A stretch of 64,000 nt of DNA, taken from positions 6,670,001-6,734,000 of the forward strand of contig NZ_JAPEPO010000001.1 in assembly GCF_026340095.1 (NCBI RefSeq), written 5' to 3'. A program made the position numbers and the translations under genes. Positions 28,461-47,448 of the stretch are shown here, piece after piece; within the stretch, counting starts at the first letter, position 1; each line of letters starts with the position of its first letter. The stretch comes from Streptomyces sp. NBC_01446 (GTDB lineage: Bacteria; Actinomycetota; Actinomycetes; Streptomycetales; Streptomycetaceae). Below the pieces are notes generated by a model, which was given only the letters and a program-made list of their open reading frames with translations, was not told the DNA's origin and made no database searches.

Positions 28461-28490
28461 CTGGCCCCGCCGCGTGAGCGGCGGGGCCAG
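28461..28490 (+). terminator. Hairpin inside the IS left end
   Basis: A perfect 13-bp stem, CTGGCCCCGCCGC with its complement, around the loop GTGA. It lies between the inverted repeat and the transposase start. Such structures can stop transcription entering from outside and thus limit transposition. Confidence 0.65.
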
Positions 28491-28506
28491 ACTGTTTGTT
28501 GTGGTG

Positions 28507-30087
28507 ATGGGGGAATGGGCCGGGGAGACGATCGGGCCGGATGTATGGGAGACCTGCCGGGATTTGATCCCGGCAGGGAGTGTGTTCGCGTTCCTGGCCG
28601 AGCATCGCAGCGCGCTGTTCGAAGCGGAGATGTTTGCGGACATGTACCCGTCGGCGAACGGGCGGCCGAGCATGCCGCCGCAGATCCTGGCCGCTTCGAT
28701 CACGCTACAGGCCCTGCACGGGCTTTCGGACTTCGAGACGGTCCAGGAGCTGCGGTGCGACCTGCGGTGGAAGGCCGCCTGTGGACTGGGCCTTCATGAC
28801 ATGGCGTTCGATCCGTCGTTGCTGGCCTACTTCCGCCGCCGGCTGGCCCGTTCCGCCCGGCCGAACCGGGTATTCGAGGCTGTGCGTGAGGTCGTGAAGG
28901 CCACCGGTGTCCTCAAGGGCAAGCACCGCCGGGCGCTGGATTCCACTGTGCTGGACGACGCGGTGGCCACCCAGGACACCGTCACCCAGATCATCGCCGC
29001 CATCCGGGCGGTGATCCGGGAAGTCCCCGGGGCCGGCGAGGTGGCAGCCGTGCAGTGCACCGCGCACGACTACAACGACCCGGGCAAGCCGAGGATCGCC
29101 TGGAACGACGAGCAGGCCCGTGCCGACCTGGTCGACGCCCTGGTCGGTGACGCACTGCGGCTGCTGGGCCATCTGCCCGAGCAGCAGCTCGACGAGAAGG
29201 CCGCGAACGCGGTCGGCATCCTGGCCCTGGTCGCAGGTCAGGACGTGGAGCCCGCCGAGGACTCCGACGGCCGCGACGGGCGCTGGCGCATCACCCAGGG
29301 CACCGCACCAAACCGGATGGTCTCCACTGTCGACCCCGAAGCCCGGCACGTGCACAAGACCCGCACCCACCAACAGGATGGCTTCAAGGCCCACCTCGCC
29401 ATGGAGCCCGAGACCGGGTTATACACCGCCGTCGCCCTGCGGCCCGGAGCCGGTCCCGAGCACCACGAGGCGATGGTCGGAATCGACCTGCTCACCGACG
29501 AGGACGAGCCCGTTGACGCCTTCGGTGACACCGCCTACTCCACCGGCGACGCCCGCCACAGCCTCGAAACTGCCGGTCACCGGCTGTTCCTCAAACCCGC
29601 ACCACTGCGGCCCGCCGTCCCTGGCGGCTTCACCCTCGACGACTTCATCATCGACACCGGCGCCGCCACCGTGACCTGCCCCGCCGGACACACCGTCCCT
29701 TTATCCGCTCCCGCCGGGCAGCACCACCAGCGCAAAGCCTCGTTCAAGGACGTGTGCGCCGGATGCCCCCTTCGTGAGCGGTGCACCAAGGCCAAGGCCG
29801 GGCGGATCCTGACCATCCGTCCGCACCACGACCTGCTCGCCGCCGCTCGCCACCAGACCGCCACCGATCCCGACTGGCAGGCTGACTACCGGCGCTGGAG
29901 ACCACCAGTCGAACGCGCCGTCGCCTGGCTCGTCCACCACAACAACCGCAAACTCCGCTACCGCGGCACCATCAAGAACGACGCCTGGCTCCACACCCGA
30001 GCAGCCGCCCTCAACCTCCGCCGACTGATCAACCTCGGACTCACCCGAACCAACGGAACCTGGCACCTCACCCCGGTCAATACATAG
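28507..30087 (+). CDS. IS1182-family DDE transposase
   Basis: 526 aa from ATG 28507. The N-terminal domain (AEMFADMYPSANGRPSMPPQ, LRWKAACGLGLHDMAFDPSL, YFRRRLARS) is the DUF772-type region of IS1182/IS5-like transposases. The DDE core follows: ALDSTVLDDAVAT, VDAFGDTAYSTGDARHS and a C-terminal VERAVAWLVHHNNRKLRYRG. A cysteine cluster, CAGCPLRERCTKAKAGR, is typical of the family. A GTG at 28474 in the same frame lies in the loop of a hairpin and is judged less likely. No frameshift or internal stop is seen. Confidence 0.93.
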   Translation: MGEWAGETIGPDVWETCRDLIPAGSVFAFLAEHRSALFEAEMFADMYPSANGRPSMPPQILAASITLQALHGLSDFETVQELRCDLRWKAACGLGLHDMAFDPSLLAYFRRRLARSARPNRVFEAVREVVKATGVLKGKHRRALDSTVLDDAVATQDTVTQIIAAIRAVIREVPGAGEVAAVQCTAHDYNDPGKPRIAWNDEQARADLVDALVGDALRLLGHLPEQQLDEKAANAVGILALVAGQDVEPAEDSDGRDGRWRITQGTAPNRMVSTVDPEARHVHKTRTHQQDGFKAHLAMEPETGLYTAVALRPGAGPEHHEAMVGIDLLTDEDEPVDAFGDTAYSTGDARHSLETAGHRLFLKPAPLRPAVPGGFTLDDFIIDTGAATVTCPAGHTVPLSAPAGQHHQRKASFKDVCAGCPLRERCTKAKAGRILTIRPHHDLLAAARHQTATDPDWQADYRRWRPPVERAVAWLVHHNNRKLRYRGTIKNDAWLHTRAAALNLRRLINLGLTRTNGTWHLTPVNT

Positions 30088-30939: not shown

Positions 30940-31120
30940 GCCGAGACCCTATTACGGCCGAAAAGGCCCGCTGCGCGCGGCCCCGCCACCGTGGCGTTGG
31001 CCACAGCGCGGCGCGCGCCGGGCCGGGCGTGGACGACGGCGGGAACCACCTCCTGCCCCTGCCCGCACTGGCCGCACTGCTCACTCGGGCGGCGTGCGGG
31101 CCGGGCGTCCACCGTCCAGG

Positions 31121-31141
31121 GCTGTCCGCTATTCGGACAGC
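31121..31141. promoter_or_regulatory. Inverted repeat upstream of the met leader peptide
   Basis: GCTGTCCG-CTATT-CGGACAGC is a perfect 8-bp inverted repeat 40 nt before the leader ATG, where an operator for the met operon could sit. The rest of the 240-nt gap from 30940 shows nothing I can assign. Confidence 0.4.
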
Positions 31142-31180
31142 GGTTCGGGGATCCGGGCGCACTTCTGCTTTACTTTTCGC

Positions 31181-31267
31181 ATGACCACGACGAGCAGCCG
31201 CACCCTTGCGACCGAGGCGACGATGACGCCCGGTGCTCGTTGTATGTGTCGAATGTGCGCCTTCTGA
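31181..31267 (+). CDS. Cys/Met-rich leader peptide upstream of metNIQ
   Basis: 28 codons: MTTTSSRTLATEATMTPGAR followed by CMCRMCAF and stop. The codons TGT-ATG-TGT-CGA-ATG-TGC place three cysteines and two methionines in six positions, right at the end. TACTTT ends 4-5 nt before the ATG, suggesting a leaderless mRNA, as known for cysteine-codon leader ORFs in mycobacteria that attenuate sulfur genes. The reading frame is followed by a 197-nt leader and a methionine ABC importer, so sensing of Cys- or Met-tRNA charging is the natural reading. The peptide is too short for homology, so this rests on codon content and context. Confidence 0.55.
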   Translation: MTTTSSRTLATEATMTPGARCMCRMCAF

Positions 31268-31464
31268 GGGCCCCCGCACCGCCTGTTTCTCGCGCCCCGA
31301 AGCGAAACGCCGCGCCCTGTCCGTGCTTGTGCCGTACGTGACCGGGCCGCCCCGCGCACAGTCTCCCCCCGGTTCCACCGCCACAGCGAGAACCGTGCTG
31401 CGTCCAGGCCGATCCCGACCATGAATGCCCGCCGCAGGCGCTCACCCGCGCCGCGCAATCGACA

Positions 31465-32517
31465 GTGACGGAATCCCACGTGATCACCACCCAGGGCCTC
31501 ACCAAGGTCTACCGCTCGCGCGGTCGAGAGGTCACCGCCCTCGACGGCGTCGATCTGCATGTCCGCGAGGGCGAGGTGTACGGCGTCATCGGCCAGTCCG
31601 GCGCCGGCAAGTCCTCCCTCATCCGCTGCGTCAACCTCCTGGAGCGTCCCACCTCCGGCACCGTGACGGTCGCCGGGCAGGACCTCACCGCCCTCGTCGG
31701 CCGCGGCTCCCGCGCCGGCAAGGAGCTGCGCGAGGCCCGCAGCCGCATCGGCATGGTCTTCCAGCACTTCAACCTGCTGTCGTCGCGCACGGTCCAGGAC
31801 AACATCGAGCTGCCGCTCGAAATCCTCGGCAAGTCGGGGAACGAGCGGTCCCGCAAGGCCCTGGAACTTCTCGACCTGGTCGGGCTCGCCGACAAGGCCA
31901 AGTCCTACCCGGCCCAGCTCTCCGGCGGCCAGAAGCAGCGCGTCGGTATCGCCCGCGCCCTGGCCGGCGACCCGAAGGTGCTGCTCTCCGACGAGGCCAC
32001 CAGCGCCCTCGACCCCGAGACCACCCGCTCGATACTCCAGCTCCTGCGCGACCTCAACCAGCAGCTCGGCCTGACCGTCCTGCTCATCACGCACGAGATG
32101 GACGTCGTCAAGACGGTCTGCGACTCCGCCGCCCTCATGGAGCGCGGACGGATCGTCGAGTCCGGCACCGTCGGCGAGCTGCTCGCGACGCCCGGCTCCG
32201 AGCTCGCCGCCGCGCTCTTCCCGGTCAGCGGCGACGCCTCCGGCGCGGACCGTACGGTCATCGACGTCACCTTTCACGGGGAGTCGACGACCCAGCCGGT
32301 CATCTCGCAGCTGTCGCGCACGTACAACATCGACATCTCGATCCTCGGCGCCGCGATGGACACCGTCGCGGGCAAGCAGGTCGGCCGCATGCGCATCGAG
32401 CTGCCCGGCCGCTTCGACGAGAACGTCGTCCCGATCGGCTTCCTGCGCGAGCAGGGCCTCCAGGTCGAGATCCAGGGTCACGAGCCCGTACTGCTGAAGG
32501 AAGGTGTCACCAAGTGA
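31465..32517 (+). CDS. metN: Methionine ABC transporter ATP-binding protein
   Basis: 350 aa. Walker A GQSGAGKSSLIRCVNLLERP, signature LSGGQKQRVGIARAL and Walker B VLLSDEATSALDPETT mark the ATPase. The C-terminal about 80 residues (VIDVTFHGESTTQPVISQLS onward) are the NIL domain, which binds methionine and inhibits transport when internal methionine is high. The GTG at 31465 has no ribosome-binding site but overlaps (GTGA) the stop of a 15-codon ORF beginning at 31421 (MNARRRRSPAPRNRQ); the GTG at 31480 is an alternative. Its own stop overlaps metI. Confidence 0.93.
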   Translation: MTESHVITTQGLTKVYRSRGREVTALDGVDLHVREGEVYGVIGQSGAGKSSLIRCVNLLERPTSGTVTVAGQDLTALVGRGSRAGKELREARSRIGMVFQHFNLLSSRTVQDNIELPLEILGKSGNERSRKALELLDLVGLADKAKSYPAQLSGGQKQRVGIARALAGDPKVLLSDEATSALDPETTRSILQLLRDLNQQLGLTVLLITHEMDVVKTVCDSAALMERGRIVESGTVGELLATPGSELAAALFPVSGDASGADRTVIDVTFHGESTTQPVISQLSRTYNIDISILGAAMDTVAGKQVGRMRIELPGRFDENVVPIGFLREQGLQVEIQGHEPVLLKEGVTK

Positions 32518-33257
32518 CCTGGTCGGAGATGCAGCCGCTGCTGTCCCAGGCGTGTTGGGACACCCTTTACATGGTCGGCTGGTCGACGCTGATCGCCGTC
32601 GTCGGCGGTCTTCCGCTCGGCATCCTGCTGGTCCTGACGGACCGCGGCGGCCTGCTGCAGAACGCCGTGGTGAACAAGATCATCGGGCAGATCGTGAACA
32701 TCGTCCGCTCGATGCCCTTCATCATCCTGATGGTCGCCCTGATCGGCTTCACACGCGCGATCGTCGGCACCACCATCGGCCGCGAGGCCGCCATCGTGCC
32801 GCTGGCCATCGGCGCCATCCCGTTCTTCGCGCGCCTCGTCGAGACCTCCGTACGCGAGGTCGACGGCGGCCTGATCGAGGCCGTGCAGTCGATGGGCGGC
32901 AACACCTGGACCGTCGTACGCAAGGTGCTCGTGCCCGAGTCGCTGCCCTCGCTGATCTCGGCGACCACCACGACGATCGTCGCCATCATCGGCTACTCCG
33001 CCATGGCCGGCACCGTCGGCGCGGGCGGCCTCGGCGACCTCGCGATCCGCTACGGCTACCAGCGCTTCGAGACCGGGATGATGTGGACCATCGTGGCGAT
33101 CCTCGCCGTCGTCATCGCGATCATCCAGTTCGGCGGCGACAGCGGTGCCCGCGTCCTGCACCGCCGCGCGGGCAAGGGCGGCGAGCCGCTCCGCTTCAGC
33201 CTCTTCGTCGGCCGGCCGGCCGTGAGTACCGCGGGCGCCACCACCAAGACCCGCTGA
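32514..33257 (+). CDS. metI: Methionine ABC transporter permease
   Basis: 247 aa with about five to six helices. It starts with GTG overlapping the metN stop (GTGA). The conserved permease loop that contacts the ATPase is seen at GGLIEAVQSMGGNTWTVVRK with LVPESLPSLISATTTTIVAI; MAGTVGAGGLGDLAIRYGYQ is typical of MetI. MetI forms the membrane channel of MetNIQ. The last 25 residues are a Gly/Arg/Thr-rich tail. The metQ gene follows after 58 nt. Confidence 0.93.
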   Translation: MTWSEMQPLLSQACWDTLYMVGWSTLIAVVGGLPLGILLVLTDRGGLLQNAVVNKIIGQIVNIVRSMPFIILMVALIGFTRAIVGTTIGREAAIVPLAIGAIPFFARLVETSVREVDGGLIEAVQSMGGNTWTVVRKVLVPESLPSLISATTTTIVAIIGYSAMAGTVGAGGLGDLAIRYGYQRFETGMMWTIVAILAVVIAIIQFGGDSGARVLHRRAGKGGEPLRFSLFVGRPAVSTAGATTKTR

Positions 33258-33315
33258 CCCCTGTCTCCCCGCCCCGACCGGCGGGTTGCACCACCCATGG
33301 AGAAAGGCACTTTTC

Positions 33316-34146
33316 GTGCGTAACACCACCAAGATCACCGCTGCTGTCCTCGCCACCGGCGCCCTCACGCTGGGCCTGACCGCCTGCGGCTCCGACAAGG
33401 GCGACACCAAGGCCAAGGCGTCCGACCCGCTCGTCGTCGCGGCGACCCCCGTCCCGCACGCCGAGATCCTCGAGTACGTGAAGGCCCACCTGGCGAAGAA
33501 GGCCGGCCTCAACCTCGAGGTCAAGGAGTTCACCGACTACGTCACGCCGAACACGGCGACCGAGGACGGGTCCGTGGACGCCAACTACTTCCAGACCCAG
33601 CCGTACCTGGAAGACTTCAACAAGAAGAACGCCACGCACCTCGAGTCGGTCGCCACGGTCCACCTCGAGCCGCTCGGCCTCTACTCCCAGAAGGCCAAGG
33701 CGCTCGGCGACCTGAAGAAGGGCGGCACCATCGCCCTCCCGAACGACGCCGACAACGAGAGCCGCGCCCTGCGCTTCCTCGCCGCCAACAAGCTCATCAC
33801 GCTCAAGAGCGGCTCCGAGGCCACCGCGACCCCGCAGGACATCGCGAAGAACCCGAAGGACCTCCAGTTCAAGGAGGTCGAGGCGGCCCAGACCCCGCGC
33901 TCCCTGCAGGACGTCGACGCCGCGGTGATCAACGGCAACTACGCGATCGGTGCCCACCTCAATCCCGCCAAGGACTCCCTCGCCCTGGAGTCCACGAAGA
34001 ACAACGCGTACAACAACGTCCTCGCCGTGAAGAAGGGCAACGAGGACGACCCGCGCGTGAAGAAGCTCGCGAAGCTGCTGACGTCGCCCGAGGTGAAGAA
34101 GTTCATCGAGGACAAGTACAAGGGCTCCGTGCTCCCCTCCTTCTGA
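33316..34146 (+). CDS. metQ: Methionine-binding lipoprotein MetQ (first copy)
   Basis: 276 aa. The signal ITAAVLATGALTLGLTACGS has a lipobox LTAC, so it is lipid-anchored outside. The NlpA/MetQ fold shows LVVAATPVPHAEILEYVK, EFTDYVTPNTATEDGSVDAN, YFQTQPYLEDFN, IALPNDADNESRALRFLA and VDAAVINGNYAIGA. It captures methionine and hands it to MetI. The GTG 33316 has AGAAAGG 8 nt upstream. A second, clearly related metQ gene follows 22 nt later. Confidence 0.92.
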   Translation: MRNTTKITAAVLATGALTLGLTACGSDKGDTKAKASDPLVVAATPVPHAEILEYVKAHLAKKAGLNLEVKEFTDYVTPNTATEDGSVDANYFQTQPYLEDFNKKNATHLESVATVHLEPLGLYSQKAKALGDLKKGGTIALPNDADNESRALRFLAANKLITLKSGSEATATPQDIAKNPKDLQFKEVEAAQTPRSLQDVDAAVINGNYAIGAHLNPAKDSLALESTKNNAYNNVLAVKKGNEDDPRVKKLAKLLTSPEVKKFIEDKYKGSVLPSF

Positions 34147-34168
34147 TCCGGGACACGAGTACCTACTG

Positions 34169-35002
34169 ATGCGCACCGTCACGATTCCCGCAGCCGTCAT
34201 CGCCGGAGCCCTCGCGCTCGGCCTGACGGCCTGCGGGTCCGGCGACTCGGGGTCCGGCTCCGGCGACAGGAGCGGCAAGCTCGTCGTCGGCGCCACCCCG
34301 ACGCCGGCCGGCGAAGTCCTCACGTACGTACAGCAGCACCTGGCGAAGAAGGCCGGACTCGACCTGGAGATCAAGGAGTTCACGGACTACGTCCTGCCGG
34401 ACACCGCCCTCCAGGACGGCGCCCTCGACGCCAACCTGTACCAGCACAAGCCCTACCTGGACGACTTCAACAAGTCCAAGGGCACCACCCTGAGCGCGGT
34501 CACCGAGGTGTACCTGCCGCCCATGGGGGTCTACTCCAAGAAGGTCGACGACGTCACCGAGCTCCGTGACGGGGCGACCGTGGCGCTGCCGAACGACACC
34601 ACCAACGAGGGCAGAGCGCTCGAACTCCTGGCCTCCAAGGGCGTCATCGGGCTCAGCAAGGGCGCCGGCGCGAACGCGAGCCCGCAGGACATCGCGTCCA
34701 ACCCGAAGAAGCTCGTCTTCAAGGAGCTCGAACCGGCCCAGCTGCCCCGCTCGTTGGGCGACGTCGACGCGGCCGTCATCAACAACAACTACGCGCTCGA
34801 CGCGGACCTGAGCCCCAAGAGGGACGCCATCCTCGTGGAGTCGGCGAAGGGCAACCCGTACAACAACGTCCTCGCCGTCAAGAAGGGCAACGAGGGCGAC
34901 CCCCGGGTCAAGAAGCTTGCCACGCTGCTGACTTCGCCCGAGGTCAGGAAGTTCATCGAGGACGAGTACCAGGGCTCGGTGCTTCCGGTCGCCGCCGGCT
35001 GA
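34169..35002 (+). CDS. metQ: Methionine-binding lipoprotein MetQ (second copy)
   Basis: 277 aa, a close paralogue of the preceding protein over its full length: both share HLAKKAGL, EFTDYV, PYL(E/D)DFNK, ALPND and NPYNNVLAVKKGNEGDPRV-like blocks. The lipobox is LTACGSGDSG. The substrate-facing residues differ in places (NYALDADL against NYAIGAHL), so it may prefer another form such as D-methionine or methionine sulfoxide (inference). Located 22 nt after the first copy and ended by a strong hairpin. Confidence 0.9.
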   Translation: MRTVTIPAAVIAGALALGLTACGSGDSGSGSGDRSGKLVVGATPTPAGEVLTYVQQHLAKKAGLDLEIKEFTDYVLPDTALQDGALDANLYQHKPYLDDFNKSKGTTLSAVTEVYLPPMGVYSKKVDDVTELRDGATVALPNDTTNEGRALELLASKGVIGLSKGAGANASPQDIASNPKKLVFKELEPAQLPRSLGDVDAAVINNNYALDADLSPKRDAILVESAKGNPYNNVLAVKKGNEGDPRVKKLATLLTSPEVRKFIEDEYQGSVLPVAAG

Positions 35003-46962: not shown

Positions 46963-47034
46963 TGCGCGATACTGGGATTGAACCAGTGACCTCTTCCGTG
47001 TCAGGGAAGCGCTCTCCCGCTGAGCTAATCGCGC
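46963..47034 (-). tRNA. tRNA-Val (GAC)
   Basis: 72 nt. Acceptor stem GCGCGAT/ATCGCGC, D-arm TAGCTCAGCGGGAGAGC, anticodon stem CTTCC/GGAAG with loop CTGACAC (anticodon GAC), T-loop GGTTCAATCC. CCA is not encoded. Confidence 0.97.
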
Positions 47035-47076
47035 GGGACGGACCAGACTGTATCAGGACCCGTGAGTGGTACTGCG

Positions 47077-47148
47077 TGCGCGATACTGGGATTGAACCAG
47101 TGACCTCTTCCGTGTCAGGGAAGCGCTCTCCCGCTGAGCTAATCGCGC
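47077..47148 (-). tRNA. tRNA-Val (GAC), second copy
   Basis: 72 nt, identical to the copy at 46963-47034, including loop CTGACAC (anticodon GAC). The spacer between them is 42 nt. Confidence 0.97.
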
Positions 47149-47191
47149 GGGGTTTCGGACCGTCGGAAAGGTGATCTTCGCGATGATCCAG

Positions 47192-47263
47192 TGGACGATA
47201 CTGGGATTGAACCAGTGACCTCTTCCGTGTCAGGGAAGCGCTCTCCCGCTGAGCTAATCGTCC
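47192..47263 (-). tRNA. tRNA-Val (GAC), third copy with variant acceptor stem
   Basis: 72 nt. The core equals the other two copies, but the acceptor stem is GGACGAT/ATCGTCC with compensating changes on both sides. Anticodon GAC. Confidence 0.96.
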
Positions 47264-47267
47264 TTGG

Positions 47268-47338
47268 AGGTGGAGACGGGATTTGAACCCGTGTAGACGG
47301 CTTTGCAGGCCGTTGCCTCGCCTCTCGGCCACTCCACC
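47268..47338 (-). tRNA. tRNA-Cys (GCA)
   Basis: 71 nt. Acceptor stem GGTGGAG/CTCCACC with U discriminator, anticodon stem ACGGC/GCCGT and loop CTGCAAA (anticodon GCA), T-loop GGTTCAAATCC. Only 4 nt separate it from tRNA-Val. Confidence 0.96.
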
Positions 47339-47375
47339 AGGAGTGTGGGGGTTCGGGAAGATCCCCCACTTCCTG

Positions 47376-47448
47376 AGCGGACGACCAGGTTCGAACTGGC
47401 GACCTCAACCTTGGCAAGGTTGCGCTCTACCAACTGAGCTACGTCCGC
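47376..47448 (-). tRNA. tRNA-Gly (GCC)
   Basis: 73 nt. Acceptor stem GCGGACG/CGTCCGC with U discriminator, anticodon stem CAACC/GGTTG and loop TTGCCAA (anticodon GCC). Probably first in a minus-strand Gly-Cys-Val-Val-Val transcript. Confidence 0.96.

Follow-up and report, generated by a model that had tools for sequence, protein, structure and literature searches.

Organization of the metNIQ locus

The DNA analysed here, a 64,000-nt stretch of the Streptomyces sp. NBC_01446 genome (the window), contains an importer operon preceded by a short reading frame. The features of the locus are as follows.

31121–31141, no strand assigned: perfect palindrome GCTGTCCG-N5-CGGACAGC, its centre 50 bp upstream of the leader ATG
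31164–31174, plus strand: promoter-like element TCTGCTTTACT; its TTTACT ends 6 nt before the ATG, a leaderless spacing
31181–31267, plus strand: leader ORF, MTTTSSRTLATEATMTPGARCMCRMCAF, 28 codons and stop, orthologue of S. lividans metL
31186–31246, plus strand: leader-internal helices 31186–31195/31235–31246 and hairpin 31211–31219/31227–31234, from consensus folds
31241–31258, plus strand: putative sensing codons 21–26, Cys-Met-Cys-Arg-Met-Cys (TGT ATG TGT CGA ATG TGC)
31266–31306, plus strand: post-stop element, GAGGGCCC (31266–31273) and hairpin CTCGC-GCCCCGAA-GCGA (31289–31305), conserved and present in consensus folds
31268–31464, plus strand: spacer to metN, C 45% and G 28%, by composition a possible Rho loading region
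31453–31464, plus strand: GCGCAATCGACA, partly complementary to the Cys-Arg-Met-Cys codons (31247–31260), candidate long-range helix
31480–32517, plus strand: metN, ABC ATPase with C-terminal NIL domain (Pfam ABC_tran, NIL), start GTG 31480
32514–33257, plus strand: metI, permease (BPD_transp_1)
33286–34146, plus strand: metQ-like lipoprotein 1 (Lipoprotein_9)
34169–35002, plus strand: metQ-like lipoprotein 2 (Lipoprotein_9)

By domain content, the downstream genes encode a MetNIQ-type importer, with methionine as its likely substrate. We grade the substrate as likely because the scores fall below the NCBIfam cut-offs, with 377.1 bits for metN against TIGR02314 (cut-off 499.7) and 172.4 bits for the first metQ-like lipoprotein against TIGR00363 (cut-off 228.85). 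The operon carries two tandem NlpA/MetQ-like lipoprotein genes (33286–35002). Elsewhere in the window, a DDE transposase gene (28474–30087, Pfam DDE_Tnp_1_6) lies about 1.1 kb upstream of the leader, and five tRNA genes are clustered on the minus strand at 46963–47448.

The original prediction gave the distance from leader to metN as 197 nt, which is correct from the leader stop to a GTG at 31465. The likelier start is GTG 31480, because in related loci the GTG equivalent to 31465 falls out of frame (L026) or is lost (L048), while GTGATCACC is kept there. An SD-like GACGGAA is located upstream of metN at 31467–31473.

The leader reading frame

The predicted frame was confirmed, with its ATG at 31181 and a TGA stop at 31265–31267, as were the codons TGT 31241, ATG 31244, TGT 31247, CGA 31250, ATG 31253 and TGC 31256. 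The end of the window leader is thus a mixture of Cys, Met and Arg, with no contiguous Cys run. None of 5000 dinucleotide shuffles of 31001–31480 gave a comparable ORF, defined as 12–50 codons from ATG or GTG with at least three Cys and two Met within six codons, and across both strands of the whole window the Cys/Met criterion picked out the leader ORF and its own inner start alone. The leader ORF at 31181–31267 is not a product of chance. An inner ATG at 31223, preceded by GAGG, is an alternative possible start of the frame; we rejected it as the main start, with codon 15 being ATG in just 59 of 137 related leaders, a count that omits leaders with ATG one codon earlier. No NCBIfam model matched the leader peptide.

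The original prediction knew of no description of such a leader for metNIQ in Streptomyces, which is superseded by a published case. Droste et al. 2021 (PMC8079986) report metL (SLIV_29928) in S. lividans TK24 as a leaderless metNIQ leader of 29 residues with termination unclear; they class it as methionine-dependent and note that it has several methionines and threonines. Their metL passages do not treat cysteine, conservation or pairing with metN. By eye, the leader of one of our loci (L038) is identical to the published peptide, MSTTSDRTPATEATTTPGARCMCRRMCAF, and the window peptide matches it end to end, with one Arg fewer and a few substitutions.

Conservation of the leader in Streptomycetaceae

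The DNA of 31100–31500 was matched in 237 of 246 Streptomyces genomes, own genome included; this match alone is no proof of a leader, because the query takes in the first metN bases. Seven of the nine genomes without a match also lack metN at E 1e-100. In the other two, one metN match starts at contig base 3 and one is partial. We inspected 70 Streptomyces loci, including the window's own; 69 have a Cys-bearing frame, and the 70th (L072) has the same frame, with CMGRMRAF. A family-wide search with 31160–31320 matched 86 of 150 genomes, covering 14 of the 17 genera, although some of the matches span short stretches only.

In total, 152 loci were examined, 144 passed a parser, and 137 distinct leaders remained after removal of seven repeats. 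The parser demanded an ATG, 23–36 codons, an M[TSN]x[TM]-like beginning and two Cys among the last 12 residues. Three loci were dropped before the counts for a partial metN match (L128, L143, L145), and five because they failed the parser, their displayed sequence having at most one Cys among the final 12 residues (L072, L130, L163, L169, L170). In seven of these eight the frame is open over the displayed stretch, with Cys fewer or displaced in most. Conservation of the frame, which the original prediction had proposed as its check, was found across Streptomyces and in the 137 distinct Streptomycetaceae leaders. As loci were chosen by DNA match, it is conservation among matches, and the counts concern related rather than independent sequences.

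The leaders are 26–34 residues long, and all 137 keep their Arg-Met end in frame. Changes in length preserve the frame (for example CMCRRMC, CMCPCRMC and CMCRLMCRMC), and some of the insertions duplicate Cys-Met units (CRLMCRMC, CRMCRMC). By peptide motif we divided the leaders into groups S (PGA with ATEA, n = 95), K (PGV or PGI, n = 24) and O (the rest, n = 18, to which L164 belongs by the motif rule). Kitasatospora and Streptacidiphilus are presumably among the genera in this set.

The Arg-Met pair, used as the alignment anchor and not required by the parser, is present in all 137 leaders. Its Arg codon is CGA in 95/95 S, 24/24 K and 15/18 O leaders (CGA-ATG in 134/137). A Cys stands immediately before the pair in 122 of 137 leaders (87/95 S, 23/24 K, 12/18 O) and immediately after it in 118 (76/95 S, 24/24 K, 18/18 O), counts that are subject to the parser's demand for two Cys among the final 12 residues. 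The residue after Arg-Met is Arg rather than Cys in 19 of the 95 group S leaders. These position counts make Met more constant than any single Cys, and Cys enriched but movable; individual Cys codons are dispensable across leaders. Some other family leaders, few overall and mostly of group O, do contain CC or CCC.

Among distinct peptides, with the start excluded and the Cys share subject to the parser's two-Cys demand, Cys accounts for 12.1% (S), 11.1% (K) and 16.2% (O) of leader codons and Met for 9.3%, 8.3% and 7.4%, compared with 0.5% Cys and 1.4% Met in five neighbouring genes. Thr (21–24%) and Arg (12–20%) are also high. The mixture of Cys and Met codons that the original prediction had seen before a methionine importer is therefore conserved, with Arg-Met among Cys codons throughout.

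Promoter spacing and upstream palindrome

The TACTTT originally taken as the promoter signal is present at 31171–31176; the conserved hexamer is instead TTTACT, at 31169–31174, six bases before the ATG. TT[TA]AC[TG], which was no parser requirement, ends 6 or 7 nt upstream of the ATG in all 137 leaders, and TCTGnTT[TA]AC is found upstream in 131. An ATG equivalent to 31181 is the start in 137 of 137, the parser having demanded an ATG and the M[TSN]x[TM]-like beginning. SD-like letters occur within the 13 bases from −16 to −4 of the leader ATG in 20 of 137. The predicted leaderless arrangement fits this promoter spacing in all 137 leaders, and in S. lividans the start has been reported as leaderless (PMC8079986). 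From the 6–7 nt spacing, we infer a transcription start at or next to ATG 31181. A sigma-70 consensus scan found no promoter at the leader start.

The palindrome at 31121–31141 occupies conserved columns in an alignment of 70 loci and occurs as a single exact copy in its own genome; with two mismatches allowed, there are 20 further copies, compared with 10 for a reversed-pattern control. Of the 137 leaders, 129 come with 95 nt or more of upstream sequence, and 90 of the 137 are preceded by TGTCC-N6..9-GGAC. The palindrome may be a regulator site for the leader promoter.

Association with metN and leaders outside Streptomycetaceae

A GTDB genome scan with the motif TGTCGAATGTG-N4..12-GAGGGCCC gave at least 119 stretches, 80 of which were listed: 78 from Streptomyces and two from Actinomadura records. 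Among these 80, all 76 that could be checked have a metN match no more than 600 nt downstream, the remaining four being cut off by the locus end. The Actinomadura leaders (MTAVRPCQPRRPQTMRVMGCMSACRMCDR in L278) keep the CRMC end, and both loci (L278 and L307) keep GAGGGCCC and a CTCGC-GCCCCGAA-GCGAG hairpin. We take Actinomadura to belong to a third actinobacterial family.

At E 1e-100, a class-wide MetN search gave hits in 43 of 246 genomes, including 22 from the window's own genus, and a search in a second family, f17, which may be Pseudonocardiaceae, found 101 of 200 genomes at E 1e-110. The resulting set comprises 50 loci (48 distinct, 46 of them f17). In many, a frame is read from a putative GTG start, such as VNVADDVGMTPQGRVMCKGMCQDVRMRAICDMCAMGRMCPMR in L225, and the TTTACT element was not seen before these leaders. 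With a threshold set after inspection of the second-family leaders, 17 of the 50 upstream regions (15/48 without repeats) passed a Cys+Met test; shuffles predict 0.01, and none of the 50 passed on the opposite strand. Twenty-four second-family leaders total 801 codons, of which 115 are Met and 85 are Cys, proportions that are inflated because most of these leaders were found by composition. No Met/Cys-rich leader was read in 24 of the 50 rows. One second-family locus (L196) has a Streptomyces-type post-stop element with one extra C.

A second small conserved frame, with the core LRR[LF][SG]HLPF[HP]PG, lies between leader and metN in 23 f17 rows (two repeats); it was seen among rows L197–L243 and, with a beginning similar by eye, in the two Actinomadura loci. 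In five rows (L232–L235 and L237), the stop of this frame and the start of metN overlap.

RNA structure of the leader and post-stop element

In RNAalifold consensus folds, the 3' arm of the leader-internal helices ends within the first Cys-Met codons. Over the whole consensus structure of 137 sequences, standard pairs fill 92.0% of the cells, compared with 89.9% in shuffles, and two-sided changes (for example GC to AT at 31194/31236) number 79 cells, compared with 18.9 in shuffles (maximum 30) and 17–56 in slid versions of the structure; these shuffles do not preserve relatedness. Further pair types show no excess (26, compared with 26.8 in shuffles). Support for the consensus leader structure is modest, and the RNA of the window leader is not unusually stable (z −0.56).

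L133, L137 and L158 are among the few family members in which the post-stop element deviates. The loop GCCCCGAA of its hairpin is present in most Streptomycetaceae loci read and in the two Actinomadura loci, and nearly so in L196. Searches of the leader region against Rfam gave no match at gathering scores; at E up to 10, two microRNA families alone were returned, far below their cut-offs, with mir-1909 (E 0.04) over the leader. We rejected a riboswitch, with no Rfam gathering-score match here or in 20 loci outside the family.

Candidate pairing of the sensing codons with the metN ribosome-binding region

The candidate helix between the Cys-Arg-Met-Cys codons and GCGCAATCGACA would end 2 nt before the SD-like GACGGAA, and its strands are able to pair in most Streptomyces. 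Pairing of 31247–31252 with 31459–31464 appears both in the minimum-energy fold of the window and in a 70-sequence consensus. The typical pairing joins TGTCGA-AT-GTGCGC with GCGCAC-TCGACA, with the A of the ATG codon left unpaired and often its T as well.

In group S, no other part of the leader shows as much excess complementarity to the spacer as the Cys-Arg-Met-Cys codons do (mean z −1.37, with 44% below −1.5), other leader windows ranging from −0.76 to +0.79. The same stretch gave z −0.58 in K and −0.10 in O, where the excess is largest at another leader position (offset −45, z −1.03). The codon stretch has its best partner no more than 25 nt from the counterpart of position 31465 in 84/95 S, 15/24 K and 5/18 O leaders. 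In single-sequence tests, based on shuffles of the metN-proximal 48 nt, p was 0.060 for the window and had a median of 0.14 over 32 representatives; it was below 0.05 in 3/10 S, 2/12 K and 1/10 O, the partner sometimes not being the TCGACA segment.

Folding simulations of the 137 leaders do not support simple equilibrium freeing of the metN start: with a simulated ribosome on the Cys codons, accessibility of the start was not raised (mean change −0.005 to −0.022). Opening energies were computed for 53 of the 137 leaders with six ribosome positions. The region before metN is 1.6–2.4 kcal/mol easier to open with a ribosome on the codons in group K (12 leaders). In group S, −35..−16 opens by about 1.1–1.3 kcal/mol, equally with the ribosome elsewhere, and −30..+12 is harder to open with the ribosome on the codons. 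The energies do not favour a switch in group O. Given these mixed results from complementarity, single tests and folding, we treat the codon–metN helix as a candidate, best seen in Streptomyces. A similar long-range pairing was rejected for the second family, where the smallest p among 19 leaders was 0.010, as best of several windows, and none was convincing.

Discussion

The arrangement suggests a leaderless leader-peptide attenuator of the metNIQ operon, transcribed from at or next to ATG 31181. Conservation of the frame points to translation of the leader by a ribosome, which, when charged tRNA-Met or tRNA-Cys is scarce, would stall on the Cys-Met-Cys-Arg-Met-Cys codons. A ribosome stalled there would, in Streptomyces, mask the codon segment and block its pairing before the metN ribosome-binding site, so that metN is translated; with amino acids plentiful, the ribosome would depart, the pairing would form and expression would drop, making this a candidate switch. 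Because Met and Cys codons adjoin, shortage of either amino acid could derepress the importer.

We consider it probable that a translated leader, by stalling at Met and/or Cys codons, controls metNIQ. That it senses both amino acids falls somewhat short of an even chance, and translational control of metN as the output is slightly less likely again. These gradings overlap, because readings with a Rho-dependent output, or with Met or Cys as the single signal, share the same stalling-leader core. The most far-reaching reading is a two-input sensor, in which shortage of Met or Cys would open the importer and the Streptomyces codons would also serve as the metN-silencing strand, the arrangement recurring in at least three actinobacterial families, one with different peptides; we hold this with a little less than even confidence.

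The same sensing leader might instead act through tna-like Rho-dependent termination in the untranslated C-rich spacer, a stalled ribosome masking the loading site by the stop. This somewhat unlikely reading draws on a spacer that is C-rich and G-poor in every group (fractions of C and G: S, 0.46 and 0.28; K, 0.46 and 0.29; O, 0.47 and 0.29; second family, 0.43 and 0.24), a composition that is suggestive at most. The metN upstream region has a C/G ratio of 1.57 over 150 nt, and one of 18 upstream regions in the window, metN's included, exceeds 1.6, these regions being set by simple script gene calls. It would also agree with the conserved GAGGGCCC and hairpin directly after the leader stop, with a consensus scan of 31000–31600 that found no intrinsic terminator (GC hairpin with U run), and with the output proposed for mycobacterial cys leaders (Seliverstov et al. 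2005, PMC1262725), but it leaves unexplained the conserved block adjoining metN (CTCGACAGTGACGG).

Which amino acid is sensed divides two further readings. A leader that senses methionine alone, as in Droste et al., its Cys codons due to RNA pairing needs or history, is improbable in our judgement. It would account for the Arg-Met of every leader, for Arg in place of the following Cys in a fifth of group S, for the CMGRMRAF of L072, and for a downstream methionine-type importer with a NIL domain, but not readily for a Cys share of 11–16% of leader codons in every group (the parser demanding two Cys), for in-frame insertions that repeat Cys-Met units, or for second-family leaders that are Cys-rich too. 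Feather is a cystine-rich, methionine-poor substrate. Higher metNIQ expression has been reported in feather-grown Streptomyces (PMC7181669), which has many possible causes and weakly favours methionine sensing. Sensing of cysteine alone, which would make this a Streptomyces member of the mycobacterial polycysteine attenuators, is less probable still: the leaderless spacing, Cys close to the stop codon and sulfur-related genes downstream are as expected, but the window has no contiguous Cys run, few other leaders do, and Met is more constant than Cys. The reading we judge least credible takes the conserved DNA as a structured RNA or riboswitch with an incidental reading frame. Strong nucleotide conservation, synonymous sites included, and some two-sided changes in helices fit it; the in-frame indels, fixed start spacing and lack of an Rfam match at gathering scores do not.

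Among known systems, the closest is S. lividans metL, with an orthologous peptide before the same operon, a leaderless start and no clear terminator (PMC8079986). The leader itself is thus already known through this orthologue, described in 2021 as a methionine leader; what is added here is the Cys-Met mixture across families and the candidate codon–metN pairing. A literature search, with most subscription journals outside it, returned nothing on the leader's cysteine codons or conservation and, for metNIQ with a leader peptide, an E. coli/fluoride paper besides Droste et al. The terms leader peptide, uORF and SCO155 were not found in a study of heat-shock translation in Streptomyces coelicolor (PMC6009599).

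Candidate Cys leaders of cys/cbs operons were described in Mycobacterium, Propionibacterium and Bifidobacterium (PMC1262725); as here, they are short ORFs with Cys codons near the stop and no terminator, with Rho suggested, and the passages on methionine operons report no conserved RNA structure before them. SAM riboswitches and the Streptomyces-metH/metK RNAs, listed for S. lividans (PMC8079986), likewise control sulfur amino acid genes in cis, but the leader region matches no such Rfam family at gathering score. The locus differs from a classical attenuator in lacking an intrinsic terminator between leader and metN in the stretch scanned, and resembles the tna-type Rho-dependent attenuator in the composition of the RNA after the leader. 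Leaderless polycysteine short ORFs reportedly precede mycobacterial sulfur genes, for which Canestrari et al. 2020 are said to have proposed translational attenuation. The present leader is similar in being a short ORF with Cys codons and leaderless spacing before a sulfur-related operon, but its Cys alternates with Met and Arg, and a methionine-type importer lies downstream.

If the two-input reading is true, one peptide would sense two linked amino acids through translation, and leaderless cysteine attenuation would extend beyond mycobacteria. The Streptomyces metL annotation would gain a testable mechanism, and the leader would be a compact, conserved reporter of sulfur amino acid status.
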